From Desulfobacterales bacterium (GTDB taxonomy: Bacteria > Desulfobacterota > Desulfobacteria > Desulfobacterales > JAFDDL01), in contig JAVEYW010000013.1 of NCBI GenBank assembly GCA_034003325.1, forward strand, positions 62,001 through 126,000: a stretch of 64,000 nt of DNA, written 5' to 3'. Both the position numbers and the translations under genes were made by a program. The notes under the pieces were generated by a model, which was not told where the DNA came from, searched no databases, and was given only the letters and a program-made list of their open reading frames with translations. Positions 26,970-60,380 of this stretch are shown here, piece after piece; the stretch's first letter is position 1; the number at the start of each line of letters is the position of its first letter.

Positions 26970-27330
26970 GTGCCGTAGATCCGCAATCTCTTCGAAAGGC
27001 TAAAGACCTATTGCCGGTAAGGATACAAGATTGAGCAGTTGACTGGAGAGTACGGCTGCCGCTCCCAAAAACCGCAGAAAAGGCATTTCGTTGTCCACCC
27101 GCGCCAGGTGGCGCACATTCCGAAAACAAACGGTTTCGAATTTTTAGGCCTTCGGCACCATGTTTCCCAATGGAAAAGATCCGTATCATCGAATGGATTA
27201 TTGACAAATGACGATATGCTCCATAGGAATGAGCCGCATGAGGTCCATCGGCAAGCGGGTAGCTTCTGTCTTGAAGGGTAATGGACCTTTTAAACCGGCG
27301 TTAATTTTTTTTATGGTTACGAGTGGATGG
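26970..27330. other. Intergenic region before bioA
   Basis: About 360 bases with no convincing gene. A BirA-type box was looked for and not seen. The bio operon promoter should lie here, but no clear -35/-10 pair stands out. Confidence 0.4.
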
Positions 27331-30455: not shown

Positions 30456-31450
30456 AACAAATTATCGCATTGGCTGAGAATAGGATCGACGGGGAAACCC
30501 CCGACCTGAAGACCTTGCGCGCCATTGCCCGCTTTCCCGAAGAAAAGGTATTTCACCTTATGGCAGGGGCGGATCTGTTGCGGGCGCATTTTTTCGGCAA
30601 CACGGTGCATCTTTGCACCATCTGCAATGCCAAGTCCGGCCGATGCAGCGAAGATTGCCGGTTTTGCGCGCAATCGGCCCATTACTGCACGGATGCCCCG
30701 GTCTATCCGTTGCTGGAAAGGCGCAAACTGGTTGAAGTGGGAACACGCGCTGCCGATTCTCCTATCCATCGCTATTCCATTGTCACCACAGGCAGAAGCC
30801 TTGCAACATCCGAGGTGAAGGAAGTCGCCGCCGCGCTTTCGGCAGTGGGAAAGGCGGGAATCGAAACCTGCGCATCGCTGGGGATTTTAACTTCGCAGGA
30901 TTTTGAAATTTTGAAAGCCGCCGGGGTAGGGCGCTACCATCACAATCTGGAAACCGCGGAAAGTCATTTTGATAATACATGTACCACGCATCGCTATGCG
31001 GATCGCGTGGCCACGGTTCGGGCTGCCAAGGCGGCCGGGCTGACGGTGTGCAGCGGCGGCATCTTCGGGATCGGCGAAACCGATGACCAGGTGCTGGAAT
31101 TGGCCCTCGCGTTGCGCGACCTTAATGTCGATGCGGTGCCGCTGAATTTCCTGGTGGCGATTCCGGGGACGCCCTTTGAGAAGTCCGTGGGTTTGACGCC
31201 GTTGCGCTGTTTGAAAATCATCGCTTTGTTTCGGTTTGTGCTGCCCGATAAGCAGATTCTGATTTGCGGCGGCAGGGAAGCCAATTTAAGAGAACTTCAT
31301 CCCCTCGTGTTTTATGCCGGCGCCAGCGGTATCATGACGGGAAATTACCTGACTGCCGCCGGCCGCACCGTGGAAAGCGATTTGGTGCTTTTGAAACAGT
31401 TGGGAATGGTGGTGAAAGAAAGGTGCGGCTCAGGTTTGACGACTTCATAA
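30446..31450 (+). CDS. bioB: Biotin synthase
   Basis: A 334-residue radical SAM enzyme inserting sulfur into dethiobiotin. The [4Fe-4S] cysteines are Cys67, Cys71 and Cys74 in [28 protein letters not shown] and [10 protein letters not shown] follow in family order. It is the last gene of bioAFDB, overlapping bioD by ten bases. Complete; the overlaps throughout the operon suggest one transcript with coupled translation. Confidence 0.96.
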
Positions 31451-38705: not shown

Positions 38706-38858
38706 CGTTAATGCCCATGCGACGGAAGATCAATACATTGAATCGGAAGGTCAGTCAACAATCTGTAAAGGCTGTTATCGCGGAACGGCCGGACGGGGCG
38801 GTTTTTTCCCTGCCGGATCGATTTATGAACCCATAAAACGTAGAGGAGGAGGAAGAAG

Positions 38859-40418
38859 ATGGTGACGAAGGAAAAAAGAATGGGTCTGGTGCACTTTTGG
38901 GAGGGGTGTATCAAATCGGTAAGTCTGGTGGTGTTTAACCTTGTCTTGTCTGGAATCCTTGCATCTGCAGCATACGCAATTAATATAGACATGCCTGGGG
39001 ATGCCAATCTCGACATTAAAACCACATTAAATTACGGTTTTTCCATGCGCTTGGTGGACCCTGATTCTGCACTCCTTAGTAATATCAATGGAGATGACGG
39101 CAATCGGAATTTTGATAAAGGAAAATTGACTTCCAACCGTGGCTCGATATCGACAGAGGTTGCATATATTATCAAAAACTTAACCTTTTATACCAACCTA
39201 TATGGCTTTTATGATCTGGTATATAATGCCGATAATGAAAACGATTCTCCATCGACAAACAATAATTTTGTGGGGGGCCGTATTGCAGAAAATGATGAAT
39301 TTGACGGTGACACCAGGCAAATTCATGGCAGGTCGGGGGATCTTCGAGACCTTTATGTTTCCGGCGACTTTCGAATAGCAGACCGGAGTTTAATGGTTCG
39401 TGTCGGAAAGCAAGTTATTTCCTGGGGGGAATCCCTTGCAACTTTTGGTAGTATATCATCTGCCATGAGCTATGCGGATGCAACGAAGATTAACGTGCCG
39501 GGCTACGAGCTGAGGGATGTTTTTCTTCCTACCGGTGCAGGCTATTTTCAGGTTGCGCTTGTGGATGATTTGTCTCTTTCCGGATATTACCAGTGGGAGT
39601 GGGAGAAAAATATACTCGATGCAGCCGGTTCATTTTTCAGCACTTCAGACCTGATAGATAAAGGCGGGCATTATTATCTGGGCGCGCCAAACATGGTGGC
39701 TTTTACCCGAATAGCAGATGAGGAGCCAAGCAATGGCGGGCAGTGGGGCGCTTCACTTCGCTACAGGGCGCAGAATTTCTATGATACCGAATTTGCTTTG
39801 TGTTACATCAATTATCATGAAAAATTTCCGCTGTTAAAAATTAACCCTGCAGCGGGTGGTTACTACACCGTGTACCCGGAGGATGTCGGACTCATCGGCG
39901 CCAGCTTCGGCACGACGATCGGAGATACGAATTACGGTGGTGAAATTGCCTACCGAATGGATCTTCCGGTACAGGTAAAAGCGGGGTTGCCGACTTATGA
40001 GGAAGTTGATCTTGTCCAGGTTCTTCTAAATGTATATCACGTGTTTGGTCCCATGTCCTTTATAGACAACACGATCGTGCTGTTCGAAGGCGGTTTTAAC
40101 TCCGTGTTGGAAGCGGAAAACCTTTCCAAGGATACCGATGCGTGTGGCTATCTGATCAAAACCACGTTTCAATTTTTTCGTGTGCTGCCCAGGGTCGATC
40201 TAGAGGTTCCGGTTACTTTTAAACACAAGGTCAAAGGTAAATCCGCTCTTACTGGGACCTGGACGGAACGTGAACATGAGCTCGCCATGGGGCTCGACTT
40301 TACCTACGACTTGAATTTGAAATTTAGCCTGAGTTACACGAACTTTTTAGGCGACGCACAAGACTATGCAAAATCGGATCGAGATTACGTGTCTGCCTAT
40401 ATAAAGTATACATTTTAG
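38859..40418 (+). CDS. DUF1302 family outer-membrane beta-barrel protein
   Basis: A 519-residue exported protein: a signal peptide ending near ASAAYA (about residue 39), alternating beta-strand pattern, and a terminal Phe (YIKYTF) as expected for an outer-membrane barrel. It belongs to the DUF1302 family, usually encoded beside DUF1329 and an RND transporter, as here. Probable role: passage of a hydrophobic compound across the outer membrane. A strong GAGGAGGAGG ribosome site precedes the ATG at 38859; an in-frame ATG at 38880 is a less likely start. Confidence 0.87.
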   Translation: MVTKEKRMGLVHFWEGCIKSVSLVVFNLVLSGILASAAYAINIDMPGDANLDIKTTLNYGFSMRLVDPDSALLSNINGDDGNRNFDKGKLTSNRGSISTEVAYIIKNLTFYTNLYGFYDLVYNADNENDSPSTNNNFVGGRIAENDEFDGDTRQIHGRSGDLRDLYVSGDFRIADRSLMVRVGKQVISWGESLATFGSISSAMSYADATKINVPGYELRDVFLPTGAGYFQVALVDDLSLSGYYQWEWEKNILDAAGSFFSTSDLIDKGGHYYLGAPNMVAFTRIADEEPSNGGQWGASLRYRAQNFYDTEFALCYINYHEKFPLLKINPAAGGYYTVYPEDVGLIGASFGTTIGDTNYGGEIAYRMDLPVQVKAGLPTYEEVDLVQVLLNVYHVFGPMSFIDNTIVLFEGGFNSVLEAENLSKDTDACGYLIKTTFQFFRVLPRVDLEVPVTFKHKVKGKSALTGTWTEREHELAMGLDFTYDLNLKFSLSYTNFLGDAQDYAKSDRDYVSAYIKYTF

Positions 40419-40534
40419 CAAATTAATAGGGTTTGTAAGCTAATGAAACCAAGAGACGTTTTTTGGGCAGCCCCGGTGAATTCGGTAAATATTAACTTAA
40501 TTCTAAATAATGATACGGTTCCTTGGAGGTAAAA

Positions 40535-41911
40535 ATGGACAAAAAGATATTGTTTATATTTGGTATACTCATCAGCTTCTGGTTGATAACCGCGCCTGTT
40601 GTGATGGCCAAAGTTACTGCCGAAGAAGCGGCGGCGTTAGGGACTACCTTAACCCCCTTTGGGGCTGAGCGGGCAGGAAACGCGGCGGGCACGATACCCG
40701 CGTGGGACGGTGGAATAACCGCACCGCCCGCCGGGCTGGGCTATCAGGGGCCGGGCAGCCGATACCCCGACCCGTATCAGGATGATAAAAAACTTTTCAG
40801 CATCAATGCCGGGAACATGGAACAATATGGTGATCAGTTGAGTGACGGCGTTAAGGAGCTGTTACGCAAGTATCCGGACACCTACAGACTGGATGTTTAT
40901 CCTACGCACCGGTCCCATGCCGCTCCAGAGTGGGTTTACGATCACACGAAGGAAAATGCTACTCGTGCCGAGCTTATAGACGATGATAATCATGTGACAG
41001 GCGCTTATGGCGGCGTTCCGTTTCCAATCCCCAAAACAGGGGGTGAGATTGTCTGGAATCATACGTTAAGATGGCTGGGAGATGCGCAATCACTTACTTA
41101 TAATTGTTTTCTTGTGCAGCCGGACGGAAACATCGTTCTTTCCAGCGGTTCGACTATTAATACGCAATACCCTTATTATTATAAGGAAGGGGGGCTGGAA
41201 AGCTTCAAAGGAGATTATTTTTTATATCTTTCACTATATATTCAACCTGCAAGAAGGAAAGGCGAGATTGTATTAGTTATCGATTCAGTCGATTTGGCGC
41301 ACAACCCGCGGAGAAGCTACCAGTACCTGACCGGACAGCGCAGAGTGAGAAGGGCACCCACGGTAGCTTATGACACTCCGAACCCCGCTTTCAGCGGTAC
41401 AGTTACCTATGACGATGCCTTTATGTTCAATGGGACACTGGAGCGATACGACTGGAAAATTATACGCAAGCAAGAAATGTTTATTCCCTACAATTGTTAC
41501 AAAGCGCTTGAAAAAACGGCACCATCCGCCAAGTATCAAAAAGGCCATATGAATCCGGAGTATCTTCGCTGGGAGTTGCACCGGGTTTGGGTGGTGGAGG
41601 CAACCTTGAAAAGTGGAGAGCGGCATAGTTATGGTCGGCGGATCTTTATTCATGACGAGGATAGCTATATTCTCATTTTAACGGATAGTTTTGATGGACG
41701 GGATAAACTCTGGCGAACCAATATGGCCGTCACTGCGAATGCTTATGATTTGCCGGGCGTAAATTCGTTCACTAATATTCATTACGATTTGCCAAGTGGT
41801 ATTTATGCTACCAATTTTGATCCTACGGAAGCTGAAAAGTTGACGATTTTCAACCAGCGGTTACCGGAAGACTACTTCACGCCCGATCAGATAAGAAGAA
41901 TGGGGCAATAA
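40535..41911 (+). CDS. DUF1329 family exported protein
   Basis: A 458-residue secreted protein with a signal peptide cleaved after VVMA (about residue 25) and DUF1329 signatures (TPFGAERAGNAAGTIPAWDGG near 38, GGEIVWNHTLRW near 168). DUF1329 resembles outer-membrane lipoprotein-carrier folds (LolA/LolB-like) and is nearly always paired with DUF1302, so a periplasmic carrier for a hydrophobic molecule is a reasonable inference. ATG 40535 is chosen because TTGGAGG stands directly upstream; the TTG at 40523 is part of that site. A long perfect hairpin follows the stop codon. Confidence 0.88.
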   Translation: MDKKILFIFGILISFWLITAPVVMAKVTAEEAAALGTTLTPFGAERAGNAAGTIPAWDGGITAPPAGLGYQGPGSRYPDPYQDDKKLFSINAGNMEQYGDQLSDGVKELLRKYPDTYRLDVYPTHRSHAAPEWVYDHTKENATRAELIDDDNHVTGAYGGVPFPIPKTGGEIVWNHTLRWLGDAQSLTYNCFLVQPDGNIVLSSGSTINTQYPYYYKEGGLESFKGDYFLYLSLYIQPARRKGEIVLVIDSVDLAHNPRRSYQYLTGQRRVRRAPTVAYDTPNPAFSGTVTYDDAFMFNGTLERYDWKIIRKQEMFIPYNCYKALEKTAPSAKYQKGHMNPEYLRWELHRVWVVEATLKSGERHSYGRRIFIHDEDSYILILTDSFDGRDKLWRTNMAVTANAYDLPGVNSFTNIHYDLPSGIYATNFDPTEAEKLTIFNQRLPEDYFTPDQIRRMGQ

Positions 41912-41921
41912 TTTAAAACCC

Positions 41922-41960
41922 GGCCTCTCGCGTAGGCTGAAGGGGTTTTCGCGAGAGGCC
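41922..41960 (+). terminator. Long perfect hairpin between DUF1329 and YCF48-like genes
   Basis: GGCCTCTCGCG and CGCGAGAGGCC form a perfect 11-base stem over a 17-base loop, 10 bases after the DUF1329 stop. There is no proper T-run (TATCCGGTTTTCC follows), so it may be a partial terminator, an RNA-stability element or a processing site that lowers expression of the genes downstream. Confidence 0.6.
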
Positions 41961-41986
41961 TATCCGGTTTTCCAAGAGGGGGGAGT

Positions 41987-43162
41987 ATGTTCTTTTTTCC
42001 TCAATTATTAATTGCGCCCTTTAAACGCGTATGGCCGTTTTATGCCGCGGTGCTGCTAACGGCTTTTTGGGGCGCAATCCCATCTGCTTTTGCCGTCATG
42101 GCGCTACTGGATCTTCCCGCGATGAAGAACGATAAGGCAGCCGAATCAATGCTGACGGATGTAGTCAATACCGGCACCCGTCTTGTGGCCGTTGGAGAAC
42201 ACGGCGTCATCGTTTTTTCGGAGGACAATGGAAAGTCCTGGAAACAAGCAACGGTACCGACAAGTTTAACGCTAACGGCCGTGTTTTTCCCGGTCTCTCA
42301 AAAAGGGTGGGCGGTCGGACATGATGGTGTGATCCTGCATTCGAATGACGGTGGCCAAAGTTGGACACAGCAATTGGATGGGCACGGGATTTTAAAAGCC
42401 AATGCCTCTTTATCAAAGACGCTTGTTGAAAACAAAGAGGCTGCTCTCTCCCATGCAACGCCAGAGGAACGCGAGAAGTTTTCAAAAGAGCTGGAAGATT
42501 CCCGACGCACACTGGAGAAATTTCAGCGGGCTCTTGATGATGACATTTGCTGCGAGCCGTTTATGGATGTTTGGTTCAAAAATGAGAGAGAAGGCTTTGT
42601 TGTTGGCGCTTACGGCCAGTTTTGCCGAACGGTGGATGGGGGAAAGACGTGGCAGGCCTGGTGGGACCGAACCGACAATCCGGATCGGCTTCATCTTAAC
42701 GGAATTACGCAAGCAGCAAAAGGGGCGCTTTTTATCGCCGGCGAAGCCGGAACCCTGTTTCGTTCGCCGGATGGCGGCGAGCATTGGGAAACGCTGTTAT
42801 CCCCTTATGAAGGCTCTTTTTTCGGTATTGTGGCCAGCCCCAACGATTCGTATGTCATCGCTTTCGGGATTAACGGCAACATCGCTCATTCCGCGGATTT
42901 GGGCGAAAGTTGGCGGCACATACTGACTGGAACCGGCGGTGCTTTGGGCGGGGGCGCCGTATGTTCCGACGGAAGGCTGATGATGGTTTCTTATTCCGGG
43001 TTGATGTTGATTGGGTCTGGAGACACGGCTGTGTTTGATCAACAAAAGGTGGGTGTGGGTCTGATTGGTGTGGCAGACGCACGGGATGGCCACGCCGTTA
43101 TTGTCGGCATGAGAGGAGCGAAACAGGTACCTATCGCTGATGACAAGCAAGGGGATAAATAG
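41987..43162 (+). CDS. YCF48-like beta-propeller protein, exported
   Basis: A 391-residue secreted protein: an N-terminal hydrophobic signal (about 15-36) followed by repeated BNR/YCF48 blades with SEDNGKSW, SNDGGQSW, TVDGGKTW, SPDGGEHW and SADLGESW. A helical insert (about 130-185) breaks the blades. Such proteins are called photosystem-assembly-like but are common beside RND transporters in non-phototrophs, where they may assist complex assembly. Its TAG stop abuts the RND transporter start, so the two are coupled. Confidence 0.87.
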   Translation: MFFFPQLLIAPFKRVWPFYAAVLLTAFWGAIPSAFAVMALLDLPAMKNDKAAESMLTDVVNTGTRLVAVGEHGVIVFSEDNGKSWKQATVPTSLTLTAVFFPVSQKGWAVGHDGVILHSNDGGQSWTQQLDGHGILKANASLSKTLVENKEAALSHATPEEREKFSKELEDSRRTLEKFQRALDDDICCEPFMDVWFKNEREGFVVGAYGQFCRTVDGGKTWQAWWDRTDNPDRLHLNGITQAAKGALFIAGEAGTLFRSPDGGEHWETLLSPYEGSFFGIVASPNDSYVIAFGINGNIAHSADLGESWRHILTGTGGALGGGAVCSDGRLMMVSYSGLMLIGSGDTAVFDQQKVGVGLIGVADARDGHAVIVGMRGAKQVPIADDKQGDK

Positions 43163-45544
43163 ATGGCTTCACAAGAGAAAACAATTATCTTGAAATCGAT
43201 GGATGAAAAACCACCGTTGCTGGAATCCCTAATTTTTAAAAATCGTCTTATCTTATTGATTATTTTTACAATAACAACGTTCTTCCTGGGATATAAGGCG
43301 ACAGATCTTCAATTGGATGCCAGTTTTGAAAAAATGATTCCGACCAAACATCCCTTTATCGTGAATTACCTGGCGCATAAGCAAGATCTGAAAGGCTTTG
43401 GAAATGTTATCAGGGTGGCGGTAGAAACCACAAAGGGCGATATTTTCACCAAAGAGTATATGGAAACTCTTCGAAAAATCACCGATGAGATATTTTTTAT
43501 TCCCGGTGTGGAGCGGGGGGCCATTCAAGGCTTATGGACACCTAATACCCGGTGGATTGAGGTGACCGAGGAAGGCTTTGAGGGCGCCGCAGTGATTCCG
43601 GATGACTATGACGGATCGCCTGCGACTCTTGAGCAAGTGAAAAAGAATCTTCTCAAAGCTAGAATCGTTGGATCTCTGGTGGCGAACAACTTTAAGTCCA
43701 CCATTGTGAATGTTCCCCTTATGGATATCAATCCGGATACCGGGAAACCGCTTAGTTACCGGGAATTTTCAAATAGCATTGAGAAACTGGTTCGTAAAAA
43801 GTTCCAAAGCGATACCATTAAAATTCATATGGTCGGGTTTGCAAAGGTGATGGGGGACATGTTGGCCGCAAGCCGGGAGGTGGCCATTTTTTTTGCCGTC
43901 ACGATTCTGATCACGATGGTAATATTGTTAGCCTACACCAGGTGTTTGCGAAGTGCACTCGTTTTAATTGTCTGCTCAATTGTAGCGGCTGTTTGGCAAC
44001 TGGGGATTTTGAGGATAATGCACCTCGATCTTGACCCTTATTCCATGCTGGTTCCATTTCTGATCTTTGCTATCGGCGTGAGCCACGGTGTACAAATCCT
44101 TTCCGGCATACACCGTGAATCGGCCAAAGGGGCGGACAGGCTTCAGGCGGCACGATTAACCTTTCGCAGGATCTATAAACCGGGACTTACTGCACTGATA
44201 ACTGACGGTATCGGATTTGCCACGATGGCCGTCATTCAAGTGACGGTTATTCAATATCTTGCATTAGGGGCCAGCATCGGTGTCATCATTCTCATTGTTA
44301 CCAACCTGGTGATGCTCCCGATTATGGTGTCATATTTGGGCGTTAGCCGAAAGCAAGTCGAGTACCAGCAGCAGGATGAAATGGCTGATAAACACCCAAT
44401 TTGGGGATTTCTTGCAAAAATGACAGGTCCCAAGACGGCATCGGTGGCCGTGTTGGTGGCGGGGGGGCTCTTTATATTCGGAATCGTCGGCAGTAAGAAT
44501 TTGAAAATCGGTGATCTGGACCCCGGTGCGCCTGAACTCAGGCCGAACTCACGGTATAATTTGGACAATGCATTTATGGGGGAGAATTACTCATCAAGTT
44601 CCGATTTGTTTGTTGTCATGGTAAAAACGCCGCCCGAGAAAAACAGCGCTTATGCCAATATGGTTGCAATGGAACAGCTCCAGTTGCGGCTTGAACAGCT
44701 TCCGGGAGTTCAATCAACCAGTTCCCTGGTGGATGAAATAAAGACACTACTGGTGGGATTTAATGAGGGGAATTTGAAATGGAAGGGGTTACCCCGCAAT
44801 CAGCAGACGCTAAATGCATCGGCTGTAAGAACTACGCCCATTGCCAATAATCGTGAAGGGACGCTTTCGCCGATCATCATTTACCTGAAGGATCATAAGG
44901 CGGAGACGCTTCAGGCCGTGGTTAATGTGGTCAACCGGTTTGCTTACAAGAACATTACGGAAACTTCTCAATTTTTAATGGCGGCCGGAAATGCGGGCAT
45001 TGAAGCGGCCACCAACATTGTTATCAGCAAAGCCCAATATAAAATGCTGATCTGGGTATATGGCATCGTGGCAGGGCTTTGCCTGCTCACCTTCCGTTCG
45101 GTTGGAGCGATGGTGGCCATCATTTTACCGCTGATGCTGACCTCGGCGCTTTGTCAATTGGTGATGATGTGGCTCGGTATCGGGGTCAAGGTCGCAACGC
45201 TGCCCGTGATTGCGTTAGGGGTGGGTGTCGGGGTTGACTACGGAATTTATATATACAGCCAATTGCAGTCGTACCTGAGCGATGGGCTATCGCTTTCCAC
45301 GGCCTATTACCGAACCGTTATAACCACCGGCAAGGCGGTCATTCTGATTGGGCTGATGTTGGCCGTCGGTGTGGCGACATGGGCCTTTTCGCCGATCAAG
45401 TTTCAGGCGGACATGGGCATCCTGCTCACCTTTATGTTTTTGGTGAATATGATCGGAGCGATCGTTCTGCTGCCGGCCTTGGCAAGCTTGTTAGTGCGGT
45501 ATAAGCGTCGGTCGGCAAAAATAGGATCTGCGATGGCGGCGTAA
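43163..45544 (+). CDS. MmpL/RND-superfamily transporter
   Basis: A 793-residue inner-membrane protein with the RND duplication: one membrane helix at about 28-45, a periplasmic loop to 230, five or six helices (about 238-400), then a second loop and helices (about 630-780). GVSHGVQILSGIHRES and GVGVDYGIYIYSQL are the paired pore motifs of the MmpL branch, which moves lipids or other hydrophobic molecules. The ATG directly follows the stop of the YCF48-like gene. With DUF1302 and DUF1329 it forms an envelope transport module; the direction of transport is not known. Confidence 0.92.
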   Translation: MASQEKTIILKSMDEKPPLLESLIFKNRLILLIIFTITTFFLGYKATDLQLDASFEKMIPTKHPFIVNYLAHKQDLKGFGNVIRVAVETTKGDIFTKEYMETLRKITDEIFFIPGVERGAIQGLWTPNTRWIEVTEEGFEGAAVIPDDYDGSPATLEQVKKNLLKARIVGSLVANNFKSTIVNVPLMDINPDTGKPLSYREFSNSIEKLVRKKFQSDTIKIHMVGFAKVMGDMLAASREVAIFFAVTILITMVILLAYTRCLRSALVLIVCSIVAAVWQLGILRIMHLDLDPYSMLVPFLIFAIGVSHGVQILSGIHRESAKGADRLQAARLTFRRIYKPGLTALITDGIGFATMAVIQVTVIQYLALGASIGVIILIVTNLVMLPIMVSYLGVSRKQVEYQQQDEMADKHPIWGFLAKMTGPKTASVAVLVAGGLFIFGIVGSKNLKIGDLDPGAPELRPNSRYNLDNAFMGENYSSSSDLFVVMVKTPPEKNSAYANMVAMEQLQLRLEQLPGVQSTSSLVDEIKTLLVGFNEGNLKWKGLPRNQQTLNASAVRTTPIANNREGTLSPIIIYLKDHKAETLQAVVNVVNRFAYKNITETSQFLMAAGNAGIEAATNIVISKAQYKMLIWVYGIVAGLCLLTFRSVGAMVAIILPLMLTSALCQLVMMWLGIGVKVATLPVIALGVGVGVDYGIYIYSQLQSYLSDGLSLSTAYYRTVITTGKAVILIGLMLAVGVATWAFSPIKFQADMGILLTFMFLVNMIGAIVLLPALASLLVRYKRRSAKIGSAMAA

Positions 45545-45628
45545 CCAATGATCTGCCATTTGCCTTTGATGAGGCTTATCGCGGAAAACCGTGCCATGAC
45601 TATATTCATGGTAAAAAGGGGACGGTAA

Positions 45629-46093
45629 ATGAAGGGAAATAAGCGTTATCTGGTTGCGATTTTAATACTGGCTGTCATCGGTACTTTTATGCTGCCTTAT
45701 ACCGGTATATCCGATGCCGCGCAGTGTTTTATCGTCAGAATTGCCAAAGAGACTGTCGGCGGAGAGAGCCGAATCTATCTCTATCCAAATGAGGTGAAAG
45801 TGCCTAAAGGCAGTTGTGTTATCTGGGTCAGTTGGATTGAAAAAGAAAATGTCAGTATCAATTTTCATGAAAATTCAAAATCATGCATCATTGCAAGTGA
45901 GTCACCATCCGGTTTTATCGAAGCGGAAGGATGCTTTCTTACCGATTTTTTAGCTTACGGTCAGACGGTAAGTCTACGGTTTAAGGAACCCGGGACGTTT
46001 GGTTACGGATTGGAGATATTGGAAAAAGCCAAAAAACCAGGGAATAGCGAAAGACGAAAAATTATAAGAGAAGGGAAAGTTATTGTTGAATAA
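45629..46093 (+). CDS. Exported cupredoxin-like protein without an obvious copper site
   Basis: A 154-residue protein with an N-terminal hydrophobic signal (about 7-30) and a beta-rich body resembling a cupredoxin: YPNEVKVPKGSCVIWVSW as the early strands and YGQTVSLRFKEPGTFGYGLEI as the last strands. The copper loop C-x-H-x-M expected near the end is missing (TFGYGLE instead), although a His and several Cys are present. It may be a structural or binding protein of the transport module it follows. The function is not known. It is followed by the first acyl-CoA dehydrogenase. Confidence 0.65.
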   Translation: MKGNKRYLVAILILAVIGTFMLPYTGISDAAQCFIVRIAKETVGGESRIYLYPNEVKVPKGSCVIWVSWIEKENVSINFHENSKSCIIASESPSGFIEAEGCFLTDFLAYGQTVSLRFKEPGTFGYGLEILEKAKKPGNSERRKIIREGKVIVE

Positions 46094-46114
46094 AAAGCAA
46101 GAAGGATAATGACG

Positions 46115-47251
46115 ATGTTGAAAAGAACAATTTATAATGAAGATCATGAAATGTTTCGCGCAAGTGTTAAAGAATTTTTTAGACGCGAACTATTGCCGAA
46201 GATTGACAAGTGGGAGAAGGACGGGATTGTGGATCGTGAGTTTTGGTTGGCCGCCGGTGCGCAAGGACTGCTATTGGCGGATATCCCGGAAGAATATGGG
46301 GGCGGGGGGCTTGATTTCAGAATAAATGCAATCATTTTTGAGGAAACTCAGATGGCCGGAACTGACGGTCCCGGTTTCGGGCCCCAAAATGATGTAATTG
46401 CACCCTACATTTATAACTATGGCACTGAAACGGCCAAGCGATACTGGCTGCCCAAAATGGCAAAAGGTGAAGCCATTGGCGCCATCTGCATGACTGAGCC
46501 GAATGCCGGCAGTGATTTAAAAGCGATTCAAACCAAAGCAACCCCCGTCGATGGCGGCTATCTGCTGAATGGCTCTAAAATTTTCATTACAAACGGCATT
46601 AATTGCGATGTGGCTATTGTGGCCGCTAGAATCGGGTCCGATAAAGGCGCCAAAACGATCTCGTTATTTCTCTGCGATGCCGCTGCCGATGGGTTTAAAA
46701 AAGGGCGAAAACTCGAAAAAATAGGTATCCGTTCAAACGATACGGCCGAGCTGTTTTTTGATGATGTGTTTGTCCCGGCAGAAAACCTGCTCGGCGAGGA
46801 AGGTCAAGGTTTTGCCATTATGATGAAAGAGCTGCCGCAAGAGCGAATATCGGTCGCGATTCGCGCTCAAGCGGCGGCACAGCACGCCTATGACATCACG
46901 GTGCCATATGTCAGGGAGCGAAAAGCCTTTGGTAAATCCATTATCGATTTTCAAAACACCCGTTTTGTCTTGGCTGAAATAAAAACCAAGCTTCAAGTCG
47001 GCTGGGCGCACATAGATGCCTGTTTGCAGGCTTTGCTGGATAAAGAACTCACCGTTTACCAGGCGGCCGCCGCCAAACTCTGGCATAGCGAGCTTCGCTT
47101 CGACGTTGCGGATGCTTGTCTGCAACTTTTCGGCGGATACGGTTATATGGAAGAATATGAAATCGCCAGACTTTGGCGGGATTCACGCTGCATGCGACTT
47201 TATGCCGGCACGTCCGAAATAATGAAAGATTTAATCAGCCGGTCTATCTAA
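46115..47251 (+). CDS. Acyl-CoA dehydrogenase (first of a tandem pair)
   Basis: A 378-residue flavoprotein introducing a double bond alpha-beta to an acyl-CoA thioester, passing electrons to ETF. Signatures: CMTEPNAGSD (about 126), the FAD region ERKAFGKSI (about 268) and the end RLYAGTSEIMKDLI. The position of the MCAD catalytic Glu is Ala here (YAGTSE), while Glu243 in LPQERI occupies the place of the base in long-chain and isovaleryl-CoA dehydrogenases, so it belongs to that branch. ATG 46115 has better spacing to AAGGA than ATG 46109 and aligns with its paralogue's start. The downstream paralogue has the same length. Confidence 0.93.
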   Translation: MLKRTIYNEDHEMFRASVKEFFRRELLPKIDKWEKDGIVDREFWLAAGAQGLLLADIPEEYGGGGLDFRINAIIFEETQMAGTDGPGFGPQNDVIAPYIYNYGTETAKRYWLPKMAKGEAIGAICMTEPNAGSDLKAIQTKATPVDGGYLLNGSKIFITNGINCDVAIVAARIGSDKGAKTISLFLCDAAADGFKKGRKLEKIGIRSNDTAELFFDDVFVPAENLLGEEGQGFAIMMKELPQERISVAIRAQAAAQHAYDITVPYVRERKAFGKSIIDFQNTRFVLAEIKTKLQVGWAHIDACLQALLDKELTVYQAAAAKLWHSELRFDVADACLQLFGGYGYMEEYEIARLWRDSRCMRLYAGTSEIMKDLISRSI

Positions 47252-47318
47252 TTTTAGAATCAAAGATTCCAAGTGAGAGAATGGAAAGTAATTGTTGGAT
47301 GAAAGGAAGGAAGGCTCT

Positions 47319-48455
47319 ATGCTGAAGCGTTCTATCTACAATGATGATCACGAGCTGTTTCGCGATAGTGTTAAAGAATTTTATAAACGTGAGCTCTTGC
47401 CTAAGGTTGAAACGTGGGAGAAGGTCGGAATGGTAGATCGTGAGTTCTGGCTCGCCTGCGGCGCGCAAGGCCTGTTATTGCCGGACATACCGGAAGAATA
47501 TGGCGGCGGTGGCCTTGATTTTAAAATCAACGCGATCATTTTGGAAGAAACGTCAATGGCAGGGACATGTGGTCCCGGTTTTGGCCCCCATAACGATATC
47601 GTCGCGCATTATATTAACACCTATGGTGCTGAAACGGTAAAGCAACAGTGGCTCCCTAAAATGGCAACAGGGGAAGCCATTGCCGCCATCTGCATGACGG
47701 AGCCGAATGCGGGCAGCGATTCAAAAGCGATTCAAACCAAAGCGACACCTGCTGATGGCGGCTATTTGCTGAACGGCGCCAAGACATTTATCACGAACGG
47801 TATCAGTTGTGATGTGGCAGTTGTTTCAGCACGAACCGGTACCGAAAAGGGCGGCAAAGGCCTTTCGTTATTTGTTTGTGACGGAAAAGCCAGGGGCTTA
47901 ACAAAGGGACGGAAATTGGAAAAAGTCGGTACTCGCGCAAACGATACGGCCGAGCTGTTTTTTGATGATGTGTTTGTTCCGGCTGAAAATTTACTTGGCG
48001 AGGAAGGCCGGGGCTTTGCTTATATGATGCAAGAGTTGCCTCAAGAGCGGATCTCGATTTCGATCTCCTGTCAGGCGGCAGCTCAGCACGCCTATGACAT
48101 TACTGTTCCCTATGTCAAAGATCGCAAAGCCTTTGGCAAAACCATCCTGGAATTTCAAAATACCCGTTTTGTATTAGCCGACATAAAAACCAAACTTCAG
48201 GTTGGCTGGGCGCACCTTGACGGATGTATACAAGCTCTGGTTGATAAGCAACTCACTATTCATCAGGCGGCGGCCGCCAAACTTTGGCACAGTGAGCTTC
48301 GCAGCAGCGTTGTGGATGACTGTCTGCAACTATTCGGCGGTTACGGCTATATGGAAGAGTACGAAATCGCCCGCCTCTGGCGGGATTCTCGCGTTATGCG
48401 ACTTTACGGCGGAACATCCGAGATAATGAAAGGATTGATCAGTCGGTCTATATAG
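47319..48455 (+). CDS. Acyl-CoA dehydrogenase (second of a tandem pair)
   Basis: A 378-residue acyl-CoA dehydrogenase closely similar to the gene before it, evidently a tandem duplication. CMTEPNAGSD, RKAFGKT and RLYGGTSEI are present; the probable catalytic base is Glu243 in LPQERI. ATG 47319 is set by AAGGAAGG upstream. The two may form a heteromeric enzyme or act on successive intermediates. It ends in TAG, 108 bases before the ADP-forming synthetase gene. Confidence 0.93.
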   Translation: MLKRSIYNDDHELFRDSVKEFYKRELLPKVETWEKVGMVDREFWLACGAQGLLLPDIPEEYGGGGLDFKINAIILEETSMAGTCGPGFGPHNDIVAHYINTYGAETVKQQWLPKMATGEAIAAICMTEPNAGSDSKAIQTKATPADGGYLLNGAKTFITNGISCDVAVVSARTGTEKGGKGLSLFVCDGKARGLTKGRKLEKVGTRANDTAELFFDDVFVPAENLLGEEGRGFAYMMQELPQERISISISCQAAAQHAYDITVPYVKDRKAFGKTILEFQNTRFVLADIKTKLQVGWAHLDGCIQALVDKQLTIHQAAAAKLWHSELRSSVVDDCLQLFGGYGYMEEYEIARLWRDSRVMRLYGGTSEIMKGLISRSI

Positions 48456-52381: not shown

Positions 52382-54061
52382 ATGAAAACGTTGTTCACCG
52401 CAGACATGATCTATAAAAGCAGAGAGCTGGGGGCGCGCCGGTTCTACGACATGACCACCGAGTATGATTGGGTAAAAAGAAATGCGTTTGCATATCCCAA
52501 AAAAGAAGCACTGGTCGATACCCTGTATGGCATCGAAGCTGAAAAACGACGTAGAAAAACATGGCCGCAGGCGCTTAATGATATTAACCTATATATTTTT
52601 AACCTGCTGGAAGCCGGTTTGTTTAAAGGTGAAACGCTTATTTGCCAGTTGCCCAATTGCATTGAGCACTATTACGCATACATTGCCGCAAGCAAAATAG
52701 GATGCTGGTTTTTGAGCAATCATGTGGATTTTGGTCAGACGGAGACACAGGGAATTCTTGAGCACGTTAAACCGACAATTGCCATTATTACACCTGACTG
52801 GCGCGGCAGGGATATTGTAAAGTGGTATAAAGAATATCAGAAACAGCATCCTGAACTTAAAAAAATATATGTAATTGGCGATGAGGTTCCGGAGGGAACG
52901 GTATCTGTTTCTGAATTACTGAATCCAAAAATCATGGAAAAATTTATTCCGGAAGATTTGGACGCCTTAAAGGTCGGTGTCTTTGATCCGTGGATAATCC
53001 TGGAAACATCTGGAAGCACGGGGCTTCCTAAACTTGTTGTTCACGGATCTTATTATTTTCAAACGTTTACAATAAGTTTTTCCGAAAAAGTGAATTATAC
53101 AAGCCGTGATAAGGCACTTTTATTCGGTCCCATGAGTGGTACTGCCGGGAAGTGGGGGGGCATATGGACGCCTTTGGCCGTGGGTGCCGCTGTGGTTTTG
53201 CAAACCCATTACAGTGATGAATGGGCCTTACGTTTAACCGAGGAAGAAAAAATAACCATGTGGAATGGGGTACCGGCCATGGGCGAAAGGGCGCTGCTGG
53301 GGCCCTTTGCAGAAAAGTATGACTTGAGTAGTTTGATAAAATTCGCTTCGGCTGGCGGCCCCATATCCAAGGAAATATCATCTCATTTAATAGATAAGGG
53401 TGTAGTAATTACGAATGCCTATGGTACTACAGAATCCGGAGGCATTGCATCCACAAATCACTGGATGAAAAAAGATGAGCTGCTTCATTCAATTGGCACA
53501 CCTCCGGCGGGGCTTGAGATTGCGATAGTTGATAGCGAGGCTAATAGGGTTCCTCATGGTGAAGTAGGTGAGTTATATATTTGGGCGTTGCATCATGGCT
53601 ATTATAACCAGCCGGAATACGAAAACGATACATGGATTAAAGAAGGGAAATGGAAGGGCTATCAAAAAACAGGGGACTTGGGTAGATTCGATGAGCGTGG
53701 CCACCTTGTTCTAACTGGAAGATCAAAGGACATGATTTTGAGGGGGTCTTTAAACATTTTCCCAAAAGAGATAGAAGATATTTTATCAAGCCACCCCAAA
53801 ATTTCCCAGGTGTCAATAGTGAAAATGCCCGACCCTATTTTACACGAAAGAGCCTGCGCCTTTGTAGTACTGAAGCACGGAGCGGAGAAATTAACATTAG
53901 ATGAGGTGGGTGATTTTTTAGGGGGCAAAGGGTTGGGGAGAATGATATACCCAGAACGGCTTGAGATTATAGATGTGATACCAACCGGTGTGGCTGGTAA
54001 GGTTGATAAAACGAGGTTAGAGATGATTATCGCTGAAAAAATAAAAGAGGAAAGCGTCTAA
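52382..54061 (+). CDS. AMP-forming acyl-CoA synthetase (ligase 2, paralogue of ligase 1)
   Basis: A 559-residue ligase nearly collinear with that at 37026: same N-terminal opening (TLFTADMIYKSRELGARRFY), the phosphate loop TSGSTGLPKLV, YGTTESGG, and GVAGKVDK with the catalytic lysine. Differences cluster around residues 230-275, where the acyl pocket lies in this superfamily, so the two may prefer different acids. GAGAGGAG precedes the ATG. Followed after 23 bases by the SDR gene. Confidence 0.92.
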   Translation: MKTLFTADMIYKSRELGARRFYDMTTEYDWVKRNAFAYPKKEALVDTLYGIEAEKRRRKTWPQALNDINLYIFNLLEAGLFKGETLICQLPNCIEHYYAYIAASKIGCWFLSNHVDFGQTETQGILEHVKPTIAIITPDWRGRDIVKWYKEYQKQHPELKKIYVIGDEVPEGTVSVSELLNPKIMEKFIPEDLDALKVGVFDPWIILETSGSTGLPKLVVHGSYYFQTFTISFSEKVNYTSRDKALLFGPMSGTAGKWGGIWTPLAVGAAVVLQTHYSDEWALRLTEEEKITMWNGVPAMGERALLGPFAEKYDLSSLIKFASAGGPISKEISSHLIDKGVVITNAYGTTESGGIASTNHWMKKDELLHSIGTPPAGLEIAIVDSEANRVPHGEVGELYIWALHHGYYNQPEYENDTWIKEGKWKGYQKTGDLGRFDERGHLVLTGRSKDMILRGSLNIFPKEIEDILSSHPKISQVSIVKMPDPILHERACAFVVLKHGAEKLTLDEVGDFLGGKGLGRMIYPERLEIIDVIPTGVAGKVDKTRLEMIIAEKIKEESV

Positions 54062-54084
54062 TTTTAATGGGGGGAAAATATCTT

Positions 54085-54861
54085 ATGAATCCAAAAGAAA
54101 TTTCAGAATGTGGTGTGGTCCTCTTGGGTGGGACGGCGGGTGTTGGATTAGAGACTGCTGCTCAATTCGCGGAACAGGGGGCGCGCGTCGTGCTGCTTGG
54201 GCGAAACCCGGAGCGTGGGGGTGCAGCATGTAAGGTGGTTCGCGACCGGGTGCCGGGCGCGGACGTGGGCTTTGTCCAGGTAGACGCCATGGATTTGGCA
54301 GACACCGTCCGGGCCGAGCAGGCAGCCCGCGACCGGCTGGGGGCGATAGATGTGCTGGTTTGCTCGACGGGCCCCAGCCATCCGCCGGTTATTTTGCGGG
54401 ATATACCGATCGAAGAGGTCAAGCCGCGTCTGGATTACATTTTGGTGCCTCCTTTGAACATGATGTGTGCCATACTGCCCGCCATGCGTCGGCAAAAAGG
54501 TGGCGCCATTATCAATGTTGCTTCAATTGCCGCCAAGGTGGCTACGCCCGGTGAGACTGCGATCGGCGCCGCGATGGCGGCCATCACGATGTTCTCGCAG
54601 ACGGCTGCGCTCGAAGAGAAAAGAAATTTCATTCGAATCAATGTTCTCACCCCGTCGCTGATCGCCAACACTCCGGGTGCCGCACTTTTTACGACTGATT
54701 CGTATAGCGTAAAAATGTGGGAGAAGGTTGCGAGCAAGGCACATCTGGGAGTTCCCGAGCCGGAAGATATCGCGATGATGACGATTTTTCTGGCCGGACC
54801 GGCGGCTCGACGCATCACCGGTCAAGCGATCAGTATCAACGGCGGTATTTCTGTCGGCTGA
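54085..54861 (+). CDS. Short-chain dehydrogenase/reductase-family protein lacking the catalytic Tyr and Lys
   Basis: A 258-residue SDR fold. The nucleotide-binding glycine motif GGTAGVGLE, LLGRNPERG and VDAMDLAD are present, and the C-terminus (ITGQAISINGGISVG) is typical. The active-site region has Ser147, but the YxxxK positions read Ile160 and Met164 (in TAIGAAMAAI), so the normal catalytic residues are lost. It may bind a cofactor without being a dehydrogenase, or use other chemistry. ATG 54085 has GGGGGGA upstream; ATG 54067 is the alternative. Base composition is GC-richer than the ligase before it. Confidence 0.85.
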   Translation: MNPKEISECGVVLLGGTAGVGLETAAQFAEQGARVVLLGRNPERGGAACKVVRDRVPGADVGFVQVDAMDLADTVRAEQAARDRLGAIDVLVCSTGPSHPPVILRDIPIEEVKPRLDYILVPPLNMMCAILPAMRRQKGGAIINVASIAAKVATPGETAIGAAMAAITMFSQTAALEEKRNFIRINVLTPSLIANTPGAALFTTDSYSVKMWEKVASKAHLGVPEPEDIAMMTIFLAGPAARRITGQAISINGGISVG

Positions 54862-54911: not shown

Positions 54912-55697
54912 ATGTACGAGACATTTGACTTGGTGGTGAGTGATGGAATAGCAAGACTGACCATGAATCAGCCCGACCTGGGTAATCCTTTCAATGAAGT
55001 GTGCTGCCGTGAGTTTGGCCAGGTAGCCAACGATATCGCTGGGCGAAAAGAGGTTCGCGTTGTCCTGTTGAGTGCCCGGGGCCAGTACTTCAGTGTTGGT
55101 GGTGATATCGTCCGGTTCTCGCAGCACATTGATACAATGGCCGATGTGGTACGTGAAGCGACCGGTAGCCTGCATATGGGGATGGCCCGCCTGATGCGAA
55201 TGAATGCGCCAATTGTGGCATGTGTCCACGCTACCGCCATGGGCGGTGCCGTGTCGGTCCTTTCCAATTGCGATCTGGTCTATAGCGCTCGCTCAGCAAG
55301 ATTCGGTGCGGCTTACTCTAAACTCGGATTTACTTGCGATCTTGGCGGTACTTTTGGGTTGGCCTCCCGTATCGGGCTTGCCCGGGCGAGACGTTTTTTA
55401 TTAATAGGGGAAGTTATTGATGCTGCCGAGGCCGAACGAATAGGGCTTGTAGACCATGTGGTAGAGGATGAAGAAATAAGAATTCAGGCAGAGCAGGCCG
55501 CCATCCAGCTCAGTAAAGGCCCGACACGAGCATACGGAGAAATTCGAAGACTGATGGCTCGGACGATGTCCCAGGGCTTCGAGGCACAGCTTGAGGATGA
55601 AGCACAGGCTTTCATGAGGGCCGCAGTCACGCTGGACGCACGAGAAGGCATAACAGCATTCATCGAGAAGCGCGGGCCTATGTTCAGCGGGCTGTAA
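54912..55697 (+). CDS. Enoyl-CoA hydratase/isomerase family protein, PaaG-like
   Basis: A 261-residue crotonase-fold protein. The oxyanion-hole segments are YFSVGGD (about 59) and HATAMGGAVS (about 109). The two hydratase glutamates are not conserved: the first is Ser (AVSVLSNCD) and the second site reads GAAYSKLGFTCDLGGT, where the Asp of FTCDLGG matches the general base of PaaG-type isomerases. Isomerase, rather than hydratase, activity is therefore likely. GAGGAGG precedes the ATG. Similar in these features to the crotonase at 63305. Confidence 0.88.
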   Translation: MYETFDLVVSDGIARLTMNQPDLGNPFNEVCCREFGQVANDIAGRKEVRVVLLSARGQYFSVGGDIVRFSQHIDTMADVVREATGSLHMGMARLMRMNAPIVACVHATAMGGAVSVLSNCDLVYSARSARFGAAYSKLGFTCDLGGTFGLASRIGLARARRFLLIGEVIDAAEAERIGLVDHVVEDEEIRIQAEQAAIQLSKGPTRAYGEIRRLMARTMSQGFEAQLEDEAQAFMRAAVTLDAREGITAFIEKRGPMFSGL

Positions 55698-55865
55698 AGA
55701 TATCGCTTGATTGAGAGCTTTCCAACGTCACACTTCTATTTCACGTGGTAACCCCAGGAAAAGATTTCAGCAATTCCGCCCAATACATAGACGGTCTTCT
55801 GCAGGGCTATTCCTACGCCGGACGAAGGTCTGAAATGCCGCTGCTGTTTGGATTTAGGAATAAGA

Positions 55866-58115
55866 ATGGAAAAAATGACAATAGGAAAAAAAATGGGGCT
55901 TGGCTTCGGCATTCTGATTCTCATGGCGATGGTATTGGGCGGAATTGCTGTTTATGAAATGAGAATCGTGTCTGTGGATTCTACCAAACTTGCCGTTGAA
56001 TATATCCCTCTGGCAAATGCGGCTGGCGGGATTCGGGATGCCGGCAATCGAAACAGGTATGCAATGCGCGGGTATGGATTTACCGAAAAACCAGAATTTT
56101 ATGATGAAGCATGGGTCGCGTTGAACAGCATGGATTCGGCTATCGCCAAGGGATTTGAGGCGACAAAGGGTGATTCTAAGTCGAACAAGGCGTCAACCAG
56201 ACTACTCGAAATGATAAGAAAAAACCGGGAAGACTACCGGGCGACCATGTCGGATATAAAGACAACCTTTGAGCGTATGAATGTAAAGCGCGACGCTTTT
56301 AATGCCCATGCCACAGACTACTCAAAGGCGAGTAAAACATTTCTAGACAATCAAAATGACGCATTAAAAAAAGAACTGGTTGATCATCAGAATATCATGG
56401 ATGTTGTGACCGGTCTGGTGGATATCGGCACTTCCTCCCAATCTCAGATTTATAAGGCGATAGCCTATAATGATTCTGCCATGCTACTTTCCGCCATTGA
56501 AATGATTTCCAGTGTTAAACTGCTGGCGGATCAATTGCGGCTTCTTTCGATGAATGAGAGTGATCTTTAGCACATAAAAGAAACCGAAGCGAAAGCAAGT
56601 GATTTCCAAAAAGTGATGCAAACGTTTTTAAAAGAAATACAACTTGGCGACGCAGCCGATAAAATGATTTTGGAGAAGGCAAGAGAGAAGATGGATGCGT
56701 TAGCAGGTAAATACCTGTTGAGTTGTGATACATTTTTTGAAGGGAAGCAAATAGAACTCACTTCTAATATTGATGAAGGGCATCGCAGAATAAACATTAC
56801 CAATAAAATTGTAGCGATTGGAAATGATACGCGTGTCAGGGCATTTGAATCTCAGGTTCTCTGGGACACGGACCTGATAACGACGGCGATGAAGAATTTT
56901 GAACTAATGGAGGCGAAATTCGCAGATCTGCGTAAAATTACCCCTTTAGAAAAAGATGTTGCGCAAATTGACGCTGCCTACAAAGCTGTTCAGGGGTATC
57001 GGTCGGCAATGGAAGGGTTCATGGCGGACTGGCAAAGCTTACAAGAACTTCAGAGAAAAAGTGATGATTTGGGAAACGCCCTGCTTGAAGCGTGTCAGAA
57101 ACTTGCCGATGCCGGCGCTTTACAAACCGCTGCCGTTGCTGAAGGTGCCATGCACGCGCTTGGCGGTGCCTCAAAAATTATGGTCGGTGGCTTGATGGCA
57201 ACGCTGTTATTAGGCATTGTGCTGGCGGTTCTGATTTCCGGCAGTGTCACACGGCCTGTCCGTTATATTATCAACGGTTTGACGAATACCGCTGCGCTTG
57301 TTTTTTCCGCTTCCGAACAGGTCTCTTCGGCCGGTCAGTCACTCGCCGAAGGGGCTTCGGAGCAGGCTGCCGCAATAGAAGAAACCTCCGCATCGCTTGA
57401 AGAGATGTCCACGATGATCAAACAGAATGCCGACAATGCCAACGCAACTATGGCGATGATGCAGGATGCCCAAAATGTGGTCAATAACGTCAGCCGGTAT
57501 ATGGAAAATATGGGAAAAGCGGTTCAGGATATTTCCACTTCGAGCGAGGAGACCGGAAAGATCATTAAAACCATCGATGAAATTGCATTTCAGACAAATT
57601 TGCTGGCTTTGAATGCGGCAGTGGAGGCGGCGCGGGCCGGTGAGGCGGGCGCCGGATTTGCAGTGGTGGCCGAAGAAGTTCGAAACCTTGCGCTGAGAGC
57701 GGCGCAGGCGGCGAAAACAACGGCGGATTTTATTGAAAATACCATGAAGGCGGTCAGCAACGGCAAAGAATTGACGCGATCGACAATAACGGCGTTTCAG
57801 GAAAACAAGGAGATTACGGAAAAGGTCGGTGGCCTTATAGCTGAAATTGCCGCCGCCTCAAATGAACAGGCGAGCGGCATCGAACAAGTTAACCGTGCGG
57901 TTGTCGAAATGGATCATGTAACACAGCAAAATGCGGCGAACGCGGAAGAGACGGCCTCCGCCTCTGAACAGATGAATGCCCAAGCAAAACAGCTTAACGG
58001 TTTTGTATTTAATTTGTCGGATATTGTTGGACAAGGCGGTCTGCGTGCAACCGGCAGAAGCGCCTTAAAATTGAATGGTTGTCGAACTGATTCCAGGGCT
58101 TCGCCAATACTGTAG
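55866..58115 (+). pseudogene. Methyl-accepting chemotaxis protein interrupted by one in-frame TAG
   Basis: The reading frame runs without shift from ATG 55866 (AGGA upstream) to 58115 but has a TAG at 56568-56570, codon 235. Read through, it would be a 749-codon receptor: membrane helix (about 14-34), a long helical periplasmic region, second helix (about 437-460) followed by a HAMP-like stretch ([11 protein letters not shown]), and the signalling domain with the conserved tip ([22 protein letters not shown]). The TAG splits the sensor region, so without suppression only a truncated sensor is made; the part after 56613 has an ATG but no ribosome site. Sequencing error, recent inactivation or recoding are the options; TAG is a normal stop in several genes here. 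Confidence 0.8.
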
Positions 58116-58346: not shown

Positions 58347-60380
58347 ATGTCAAGAAAGATGAAGCTTTTTGAACCGATCAAAATCGGAACTGTCGAGTTG
58401 AAGAACCGGGTAATGATGCTTCCCATGTCGGTTGAACTTGCGGAGAATTACCGCACGACGGACCGGCTGATCGATTTCTTCGCGCAACGGGCCAAAGGCG
58501 GAGTAGGTCTGGTGTGCCTCGGTACAGTTTTTGTGGCGGATTTATGGGGAACAACGCCGCTGTATCCTTCCCAGGCCCATGCTTCGGGAATATGGAGTGA
58601 CGACTTTATTCCAGGCCTGAAGAAGCTGACGTCAGCGATTCGGGAGAACGGGGGAAAGTCATGTTGCCAGTTGGACTTGTGCTATGAATGGCGGCGGGAT
58701 GGTAGCGCTCCCCTCGAGGCGGTGGGACCGTCCGACGGCCCCGGGGGGCCGTTTGTGCCCCATGTGAGAGAGTTAACGGTCGAGGAAATTCACATCATGG
58801 TCGAACAGTTCAGCGACGGCGCAAGACGAGCGCGGGAAGCGGGCTTCGATATGGTCGACCTGCACGGCGGCATTGGCTACATGATCAGTCGTTTTATCTC
58901 CTCTTTCTCTAACCGGCGTACCGATGACTATGGCGGCACCCTGGAGAAGCGGATGCGTTTTATTGAGGAGATCATTGCGGCATCGCAGAAAAAAGCCGGC
59001 AAGGACTTTCCCCTTATCACCCGGATCTCGGCAGAGGACTACATGCCGGGTGGCCATACAATCGAGGACACGAAAAAGATGGTGCCCATTCTGGAACGAG
59101 CCGGCATCGCTGCCCTCAATATTCAGGTAGGATTCCATGAAGCGCCGCGCCCGCTGGTCAACCAGTTCGTACCGGAAGGGGCATTTGTCCATCTGGCCGA
59201 AGAGATCAAGAAGATTGCCAAGGTCCCGGTGATTGCCGGCTACCGCATTGATTCTGCCGAGTTGGCAGAAGAAATAGTGGAAAAGGGGCGAGCGGACATG
59301 GTCGGGATGGCGCGGGCGCTAATTGCAGATCCCGAGTTCGTCAACAAAACCAGAGAAGGGCGACCGGAGACAATTCGTCGGTGTATTGTCTGCAGTCGAT
59401 GCCTCGACGGTGCGTTTGTGGGGCAAGGGGTGAACTGCTCAGTCAATGCCTCGGTGGGGAAAGATTTGGGCGAGCCTGTTCCGGGAAACAAGAAAATAGT
59501 CGTTATCGGAAGTGGTCCTTCAGGGATGGAGGCGGCAAGGGTCGCAGCCGGAAGAGGGCACCGGGTTACCCTTTTGGAGCGCGGACGCCGACTTGGCGGC
59601 CTGTTGGTTCTGGCGTCCATTATGAACGAAAAAATGGAGAGACTCCTCCTTTGGTATCGACAGGAAATGGAAAGCCTTCCCATAGATATCCGGCTGAACA
59701 CGGAGGTGTCGGAGACCTTGCTGGAACAAATGGAACCCGATGCGATCATCGTGGCTCCCGGCGGAGAGCCGATCGTTCCCGATGTGCCCGGAGTTGATGG
59801 CGAGAATGTGATCGGGGCCTTTCATATGAAGAAGCTCATAGAAGGGATTCCCCCTAAAAAAGGGTTGCTTTGGCGTGTGGCCGCTGAGGGGGCCAAGCAT
59901 TTTGGTGGGAATGCCGCTTTCATGAGGCGGAGCATGAGCCTTCCCTGGCCGGTGAAGAAGCGGGTGGCGGTAATCGGCGGCGGCTTTTTCGGCTGCGAGG
60001 TGGCGTTGGCGGTGATGCCAGGCAGAGAGGTAACCATCATTGAGGAGTCCGGCAAGATCGGTGGCGGTATCGGTATCATCGACAGGCAGACGCAGTTGAA
60101 TCTTTTAAAAGAAGGTGGCGTCAGATTTAAAACCCTGACTCGGGTGAAGGAGATAACGCCTGCCGGCGTGAAGGTGATCGACAAAGACGGGTTGGAAGGC
60201 TTTGTCGATGTGGACACGGTGATGCTGGCTTTGGGCGTAAAAGAGAACCGGAAGCTGGCTGATCAGCTGGCGGCAAAGTTTAAAAATGTTCATTTGATCG
60301 GGGAGGGCACCGGAGGTGGTGAAACCAGGAGAACCCGGGAAGCCGTTGCGGACGGCTATGAGATCGGCATGAAGATCTAA
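58347..60380 (+). CDS. NADH:flavin oxidoreductase, 2,4-dienoyl-CoA-reductase-like (Old Yellow Enzyme family)
   Basis: A 677-residue iron-sulfur flavoenzyme. The FMN barrel spans about 6-340 with the active-site region DLHGGIGYMISRF, a [4Fe-4S] site is built from CIVCSRC (about 350) plus a later Cys (GVNCSVN), and the C-terminal half (390-677) is an FAD/NAD module with two dinucleotide motifs (VIGSGPSGMEAARVAAG, VIGGGFFGCEVALAV). FadH and related enzymes reduce dienoyl-CoA or enones. In this cluster it may reduce an unsaturated acyl-CoA. GAAGGAG precedes the ATG. Confidence 0.9.
   Translation: MSRKMKLFEPIKIGTVELKNRVMMLPMSVELAENYRTTDRLIDFFAQRAKGGVGLVCLGTVFVADLWGTTPLYPSQAHASGIWSDDFIPGLKKLTSAIRENGGKSCCQLDLCYEWRRDGSAPLEAVGPSDGPGGPFVPHVRELTVEEIHIMVEQFSDGARRAREAGFDMVDLHGGIGYMISRFISSFSNRRTDDYGGTLEKRMRFIEEIIAASQKKAGKDFPLITRISAEDYMPGGHTIEDTKKMVPILERAGIAALNIQVGFHEAPRPLVNQFVPEGAFVHLAEEIKKIAKVPVIAGYRIDSAELAEEIVEKGRADMVGMARALIADPEFVNKTREGRPETIRRCIVCSRCLDGAFVGQGVNCSVNASVGKDLGEPVPGNKKIVVIGSGPSGMEAARVAAGRGHRVTLLERGRRLGGLLVLASIMNEKMERLLLWYRQEMESLPIDIRLNTEVSETLLEQMEPDAIIVAPGGEPIVPDVPGVDGENVIGAFHMKKLIEGIPPKKGLLWRVAAEGAKHFGGNAAFMRRSMSLPWPVKKRVAVIGGGFFGCEVALAVMPGREVTIIEESGKIGGGIGIIDRQTQLNLLKEGGVRFKTLTRVKEITPAGVKVIDKDGLEGFVDVDTVMLALGVKENRKLADQLAAKFKNVHLIGEGTGGGETRRTREAVADGYEIGMKI

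Follow-up and report, generated by a model that had tools for sequence, protein, structure and literature searches.

A Desulfobacterales SDR protein lacking the catalytic Tyr and Lys belongs to an unnamed subfamily associated with CoA-ester genes and is a possible ene-reductase

The DNA analysed here, a window of 64,000 nucleotides from a Desulfobacterales bacterium, carries at positions 54085 to 54861 a gene for an SDR of 258 amino acids without the catalytic Tyr. Its translation shows a real and complete ORF, and the start at 54085 agrees with that of the relatives, a second in-frame ATG being located upstream at 54067. The gene is immediately preceded by one encoding an AMP-forming acyl-CoA ligase (52382 to 54061) and followed by one for a crotonase-fold protein (54912 to 55697), whose nearest curated models, i.e. 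the alternative type of oxepin-CoA hydrolase and the PaaG isomerase, both score below cut-off. Further upstream, the stretch from 37026 to 48455 encodes another acyl-CoA ligase, DUF1302, DUF1329 and YCF48-like proteins, an MMPL transporter and two acyl-CoA dehydrogenases, and a FadH/OYE-type flavoenzyme gene is found downstream (58347 to 60380), all of these genes lying on the forward strand. The same ligase/DUF1302/DUF1329/YCF48/MMPL/dehydrogenase block adjoins a copy of the SDR gene on plasmid pAZKH of Azoarcus sp. KH32C, with 51–52 % identity to the window for the acyl-CoA dehydrogenases and 51 % for the MMPL protein. Judging from this gene context, the cluster would serve the catabolism of a CoA-activated, likely hydrophobic acid; our literature search found no explanation of the neighbourhood. 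The steroid enzyme ScdB, considered for the DUF1302/MMPL block, is described as an SDR oxidoreductase interconverting ketone and hydroxyl groups (PMC13101464).

Two features of the cluster may be added. The two acyl-CoA ligase genes (37026 to 38705 and 52382 to 54061), one on either side of the genes for the transporter and the acyl-CoA dehydrogenases, are 81 % identical, suggesting a duplication inside the cluster. The flavoenzyme gene is GC-rich for the window (55.8 %), and its nearest curated model is BaiCD, known from bile-acid metabolism, with 409 bits against a cut-off of 825.

The SDR itself matches the Pfam families adh_short_C2 (2e-35) and adh_short (3e-33), and its glycine-rich dinucleotide motif (LLGGTAGVG, residues 13–21, 54121 to 54147) contains LGGTAGVG, a variant of TGxxxGIG; R40 and D67 are likewise retained. 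The Rossmann fold and a TGxxxGxG-type motif therefore place it in the SDR superfamily, in agreement with the original prediction of an intact fold and glycine motif, while the hallmarks of classical SDRs are missing, i.e. there is no YxxxK, and of the tetrad the Ser is present but the Asn is replaced. In the alignment with canonical SDRs, Ile160 (54562 to 54564) falls on the Tyr and Met164 (54574 to 54576) on the Lys, exactly as the original prediction had numbered them, and Ser147 (54523 to 54525) stays. The tetrad Asn is changed to Ile119 (54439 to 54441) and NNAG to CSTG. None of the best 25 NCBIfam models reached its cut-off, the top one being PRK07231 with 129 bits versus 215.

The AF2 model (mean pLDDT 87.3, pTM 0.89) shows a typical SDR fold with TM-scores of 0.80–0.90 to solved SDRs among the matches listed, and the top-ranking solved structures share at most about 30 % identity with the window SDR. 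A relative from Citricoccus has a similar predicted fold (pLDDT 88.4). The segment containing Glu157, Ile160, Gly161 and Met164 (54553 to 54576) reaches into helix 159–181, with Ile160 and Met164 at its start, while the preceding loop 148–155, which includes Lys151 (Ser147 to Lys151, 54523 to 54537), is of low confidence with a pLDDT below 50. Sequence and model together show that the Rossmann fold and probably also an NADP(H) site have been retained.

The loss of Tyr and Lys is the signature of an SDR subfamily and not an isolated oddity. Orthologs sharing these substitutions do exist and form a group that comprises the window SDR and 31 relatives from Actinomycetota, Alphaproteobacteria and Betaproteobacteria. 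A single-sequence scan of 84,980 species genomes yielded five close relatives (45–53 % identity) and the search of plasmids ten records. By profile search, 7 of 395 genomes sampled from the Citricoccus class and 10 of 385 from that of Sphingopyxis proved to hold members; the nearest relative, from an actinobacterial genome (G711, locus L071), is 66 % identical. In a tree of 55 rows built without the two trait columns, i.e. the Tyr and Lys positions, the 32 family members form one clade (support 100/100), within which the window SDR pairs with an actinobacterial sequence (100/100) and then with two Sphingopyxis sequences (98/94).

Position 160 is never Tyr in these 32 proteins (Ile in 24, Leu in 3, Ala in 3, Val in 1 and His in 1), while 23 have Met at position 164, 4 have Lys and 5 another residue, the four Lys-bearing members showing that Tyr can be absent while Lys stays. 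The tetrad Asn, as read off the printed alignment, is found in none of them. The family alignment shows the N-S-Y-K tetrad replaced by a new set of residues, i.e. S147 (30/32), K151 (31/32), T154, G156 and E157 (all 32/32), R180 (32/32), T189 (30/32), S191 (31/32) and T196 (32/32), together with an invariant G161; K151, T189, S191 and T196 occur in 0 of the 24 other SDRs of the same alignment. Located at Ser+4, K151 might represent the Lys in a new place. Nearly all members keep the NADP-type motif GG(T/S)xG(V/I)G, and R40 (31/32) and D67 (32/32) are likewise retained. No conserved Tyr column was found across the family, the maximum being 15 of 32 rows (column 199), so a Tyr/Lys pair shifted within the pocket as in FabI (YxxxxxxK), which would have spoken against a true loss, was rejected. 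Two pairs of close relatives, with dN/dS values of 0.08 and 0.11, show the family to be under purifying selection. Residue 148 (54526 to 54528) is Ile in the window SDR and Asp in the other 31 of the 32 rows.

SDRs are normally assigned by YxxxK. For this subfamily, we came across neither a name nor a curated model nor a solved structure, and its annotated members carry only generic SDR oxidoreductase names, yet cannot use the textbook mechanism.

The original prediction also offered a CoA-ester enzyme, and the gene surroundings support this. At least one CoA-ester gene was present within 6 kb in 28 of the 32 family loci versus 3 of 20 control regions (Fisher p 2e-7), a count that relied on a home-made reference set and, for annotated loci, on hand-listed annotations, the controls being a small set of arbitrary 12.8-kb regions from SDR-carrying genomes, covering the genomes of some of the loci and not matched for SDR genes. 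Of the loci compared, L071 has the closest counterpart of the window's crotonase-like gene (64 % identity), where it is again located 3′ of the SDR gene.

At nine loci (L012, L021, L022, L025, L028, L068, L069, L073 and L074), a two-subunit enzyme of the 2-hydroxyacyl-CoA dehydratase/benzoyl-CoA reductase type is encoded within about 6 kb of the SDR gene, mostly together with an activase gene and sometimes directly abutting it. All nine belong to one subclade of 18 members that includes the window SDR (95/96), and PF06050 is rare in the groups that harbour them, exceeding the cut-off in 6 of 198 and 10 of 190 genomes; Citricoccus has two SDR copies, each near a separate dehydratase pair. Nevertheless, the link is not obligate: PF06050 is absent from 12 of 14 further SDR-bearing genomes tested, and at the window locus no HgdA/B-type gene lies less than about 6 kb from the SDR gene. 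Elsewhere in the host genome, there are 19 PF06050 matches on four contigs (C4, C9, C12 and C35), many for one genome. In the NCBIfam search of the dehydratase-type genes, the benzoyl-CoA reductase models scored far below cut-off and the activase over it, a result that does not decide between dehydratases and reductases. The genes at the nine loci come from Rhodococcus, Citricoccus and Sphingopyxis, several of them on plasmids. These genera are usually regarded as aerobic, while radical enzymes of the 2-hydroxyacyl-CoA dehydratase type are usually oxygen-sensitive; some pathways of the family pair such enzymes with genomes of aerobic genera.

Taken together, our data show the window SDR to be an intact member of an unnamed subfamily; it would work in a catabolic cluster, probably of lateral origin, for a CoA-activated acid and most likely acts as an NADPH-dependent ene-reductase (probability roughly 0.45). 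Counted for this reading are the 100/100 clade, the invariant residues, the purifying selection, the predicted fold, the NADP-type motif, the CoA-ester neighbours and the gene pair shared with L071, and ene-reduction is favoured because SDRs that have abandoned the Tyr include enzymes reducing a C=C bond beside a carbonyl. PECR and DECR are such SDRs, the loss of the Tyr being seen here in their homologues encoded near family members. Like the family, these enoyl-CoA reductases work in a CoA-ester context and have the Tyr replaced (by Ser), but at the Lys position they still have Lys or Arg, and they form a separate clade. AerF, a Tyr-less SDR with double-bond reductase activity that ranks among the top matches of the window SDR by profile and by fold, has Ser and Asn in place of Tyr and Lys and a Lys at the K151 position, but is without the family's Ser147, Glu157 and signature and acts in peptide biosynthesis with no CoA ester. 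In the isopiperitenone reductase of Mentha, where the Tyr is likewise substituted, the change from Tyr to Glu goes with ene rather than keto reduction, and a residue swap switches the activity (PMC4988501); this differs from the family in the Glu at the Tyr position and in being a plant terpenoid enzyme not acting on CoA esters.

As an ene-reductase, the window SDR would use NADP(H), as its retained motif suggests, to deliver hydride to an unsaturated CoA thioester at its beta carbon; the enolate might be stabilized or protonated by Ser147, perhaps also by K151 or E157, in place of the Tyr; the adjacent crotonase-like protein would determine where the double bond lies. Several points count against ene-reduction: Ile at the Tyr position offers no acid, Met164 removes the Lys that normally holds the nicotinamide ribose, and the predicted new active site with K151 falls outside the confidently modelled part of the protein. 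In addition, loci L012, L022, L028 and L071 already hold a PECR/DECR-like SDR as a separate neighbour gene, so that a second ene-reductase could be redundant; at L022 and L071, these are putatively PECR-like by their motif, their nearest NCBIfam models being generic SDRs and 2,4-dienoyl-CoA reductase, all below cut-off. Membership of the family itself in PECR/DECR was rejected, since these neighbours group apart (98/92) and the curated models stayed below cut-off.

It is rather unlikely that the window SDR is instead a non-catalytic subunit paired with an active SDR. Of the four tetrad residues only Ser147 remains, another SDR gene is located nearby in several relatives, and BbsCD of anaerobic toluene degradation, described as having inactive pseudoenzyme subunits in the title of von Horsten et al. 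(reference 26 in PMC10818641), is, going by that title, an earlier case of an SDR subunit that is a pseudoenzyme within a pathway of CoA esters. However, within the window no second SDR gene adjoins that of the window SDR, the SDRs encoded near the relatives vary in type and include no constant partner, and the protein retains its nucleotide motif, the glycine motif and numerous new polar residues being invariant in the family. Likewise, because the NADP-type motif is kept and new polar residues are invariant, a scaffold role as originally suggested is not favoured, while a putative non-dehydrogenase remains a plausible description.

A non-redox enzyme of CoA esters, such as an isomerase, hydratase or lyase, with the cofactor structural or lost, is improbable. 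It would agree with the absence of both members of the proton/hydride relay and with the CoA-ester gene surroundings, and the invariant E157 and K151 could serve as acid and base, but the NADP-type motif, R40 and D67 in nearly all members suggest continued cofactor use.

Lower still is the likelihood that the protein has remained an alcohol or ketone dehydrogenase with a relocated Lys, i.e. K151 at Ser+4, and another acid. The SDA...GE stretch is also found in a nearby SDR (L076:13444-14184) whose best curated model, although under cut-off, is TIGR03206, i.e. the BadH-type 2-hydroxycyclohexanecarboxyl-CoA dehydrogenases, which like the family are SDRs of CoA-ester catabolism. Its SDAGRVGSMGETV following the Ser resembles the family's SDAAKVATPGETV, a likeness that is suggestive only, and the nearest canonical relatives of the family are uncertain. 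The BadH-like rows differ in keeping Tyr and Lys (29 % identity to the window SDR), and a dehydrogenase is hard to reconcile with a family without any conserved Tyr in which the relay Asn is also lost. BadH membership was rejected, since TIGR03206 is missing from the top 25 NCBIfam models for the window SDR and Tyr and Lys are absent. Finally, a decaying or mis-sequenced gene, to which the further departure at Ile148 might point, is very improbable, given a complete ORF, the reappearance of the Tyr/Lys changes in independent genomes from other phyla and the low dN/dS in two close pairs; recurrence and dN/dS rule decay out for the family, as the original prediction had claimed for the gene.

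One may speculate further, with considerable doubt, that the family is a new SDR class with S-x3-K...G-E for N-S-Y-K, reducing the unsaturated CoA product of ATP-driven radical enzymes of the dehydratase/benzoyl-CoA reductase type in aerobic or facultative bacteria. The family points to unexplored CoA-ester pathways and provides a convenient case for asking how much change in chemistry the SDR scaffold allows.

Regarding its origin, the SDR gene has a GC content of 58.0 % (GC3 61.8 %), compared with 43.7 % in the upstream ligase gene and 50.0 % in the window. Besides the host itself, no ortholog was found in 390 sampled genomes of its order by single-sequence search or in 297 sampled genomes of its phylum by profile search, and the viral contigs searched contained no relative. 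This GC contrast and the absence from sampled relatives of the host indicate that the SDR gene was probably acquired laterally. Since the crotonase-like gene follows the SDR gene both here and in L071, the pair probably moved together.

Two other stretches of the window deserve mention. A methyl-accepting chemotaxis gene between the crotonase-like and flavoenzyme genes (55848 to 58115, forward strand) runs in one frame with a single in-frame TAG at 56568 to 56570, its halves forming separate ORFs, which may reflect a nonsense mutation, recoding or a sequencing error. The stretch from 27208 to 31450 reads by eye as a biotin synthesis cluster, with bioA, bioF, bioD and bioB in one direction.
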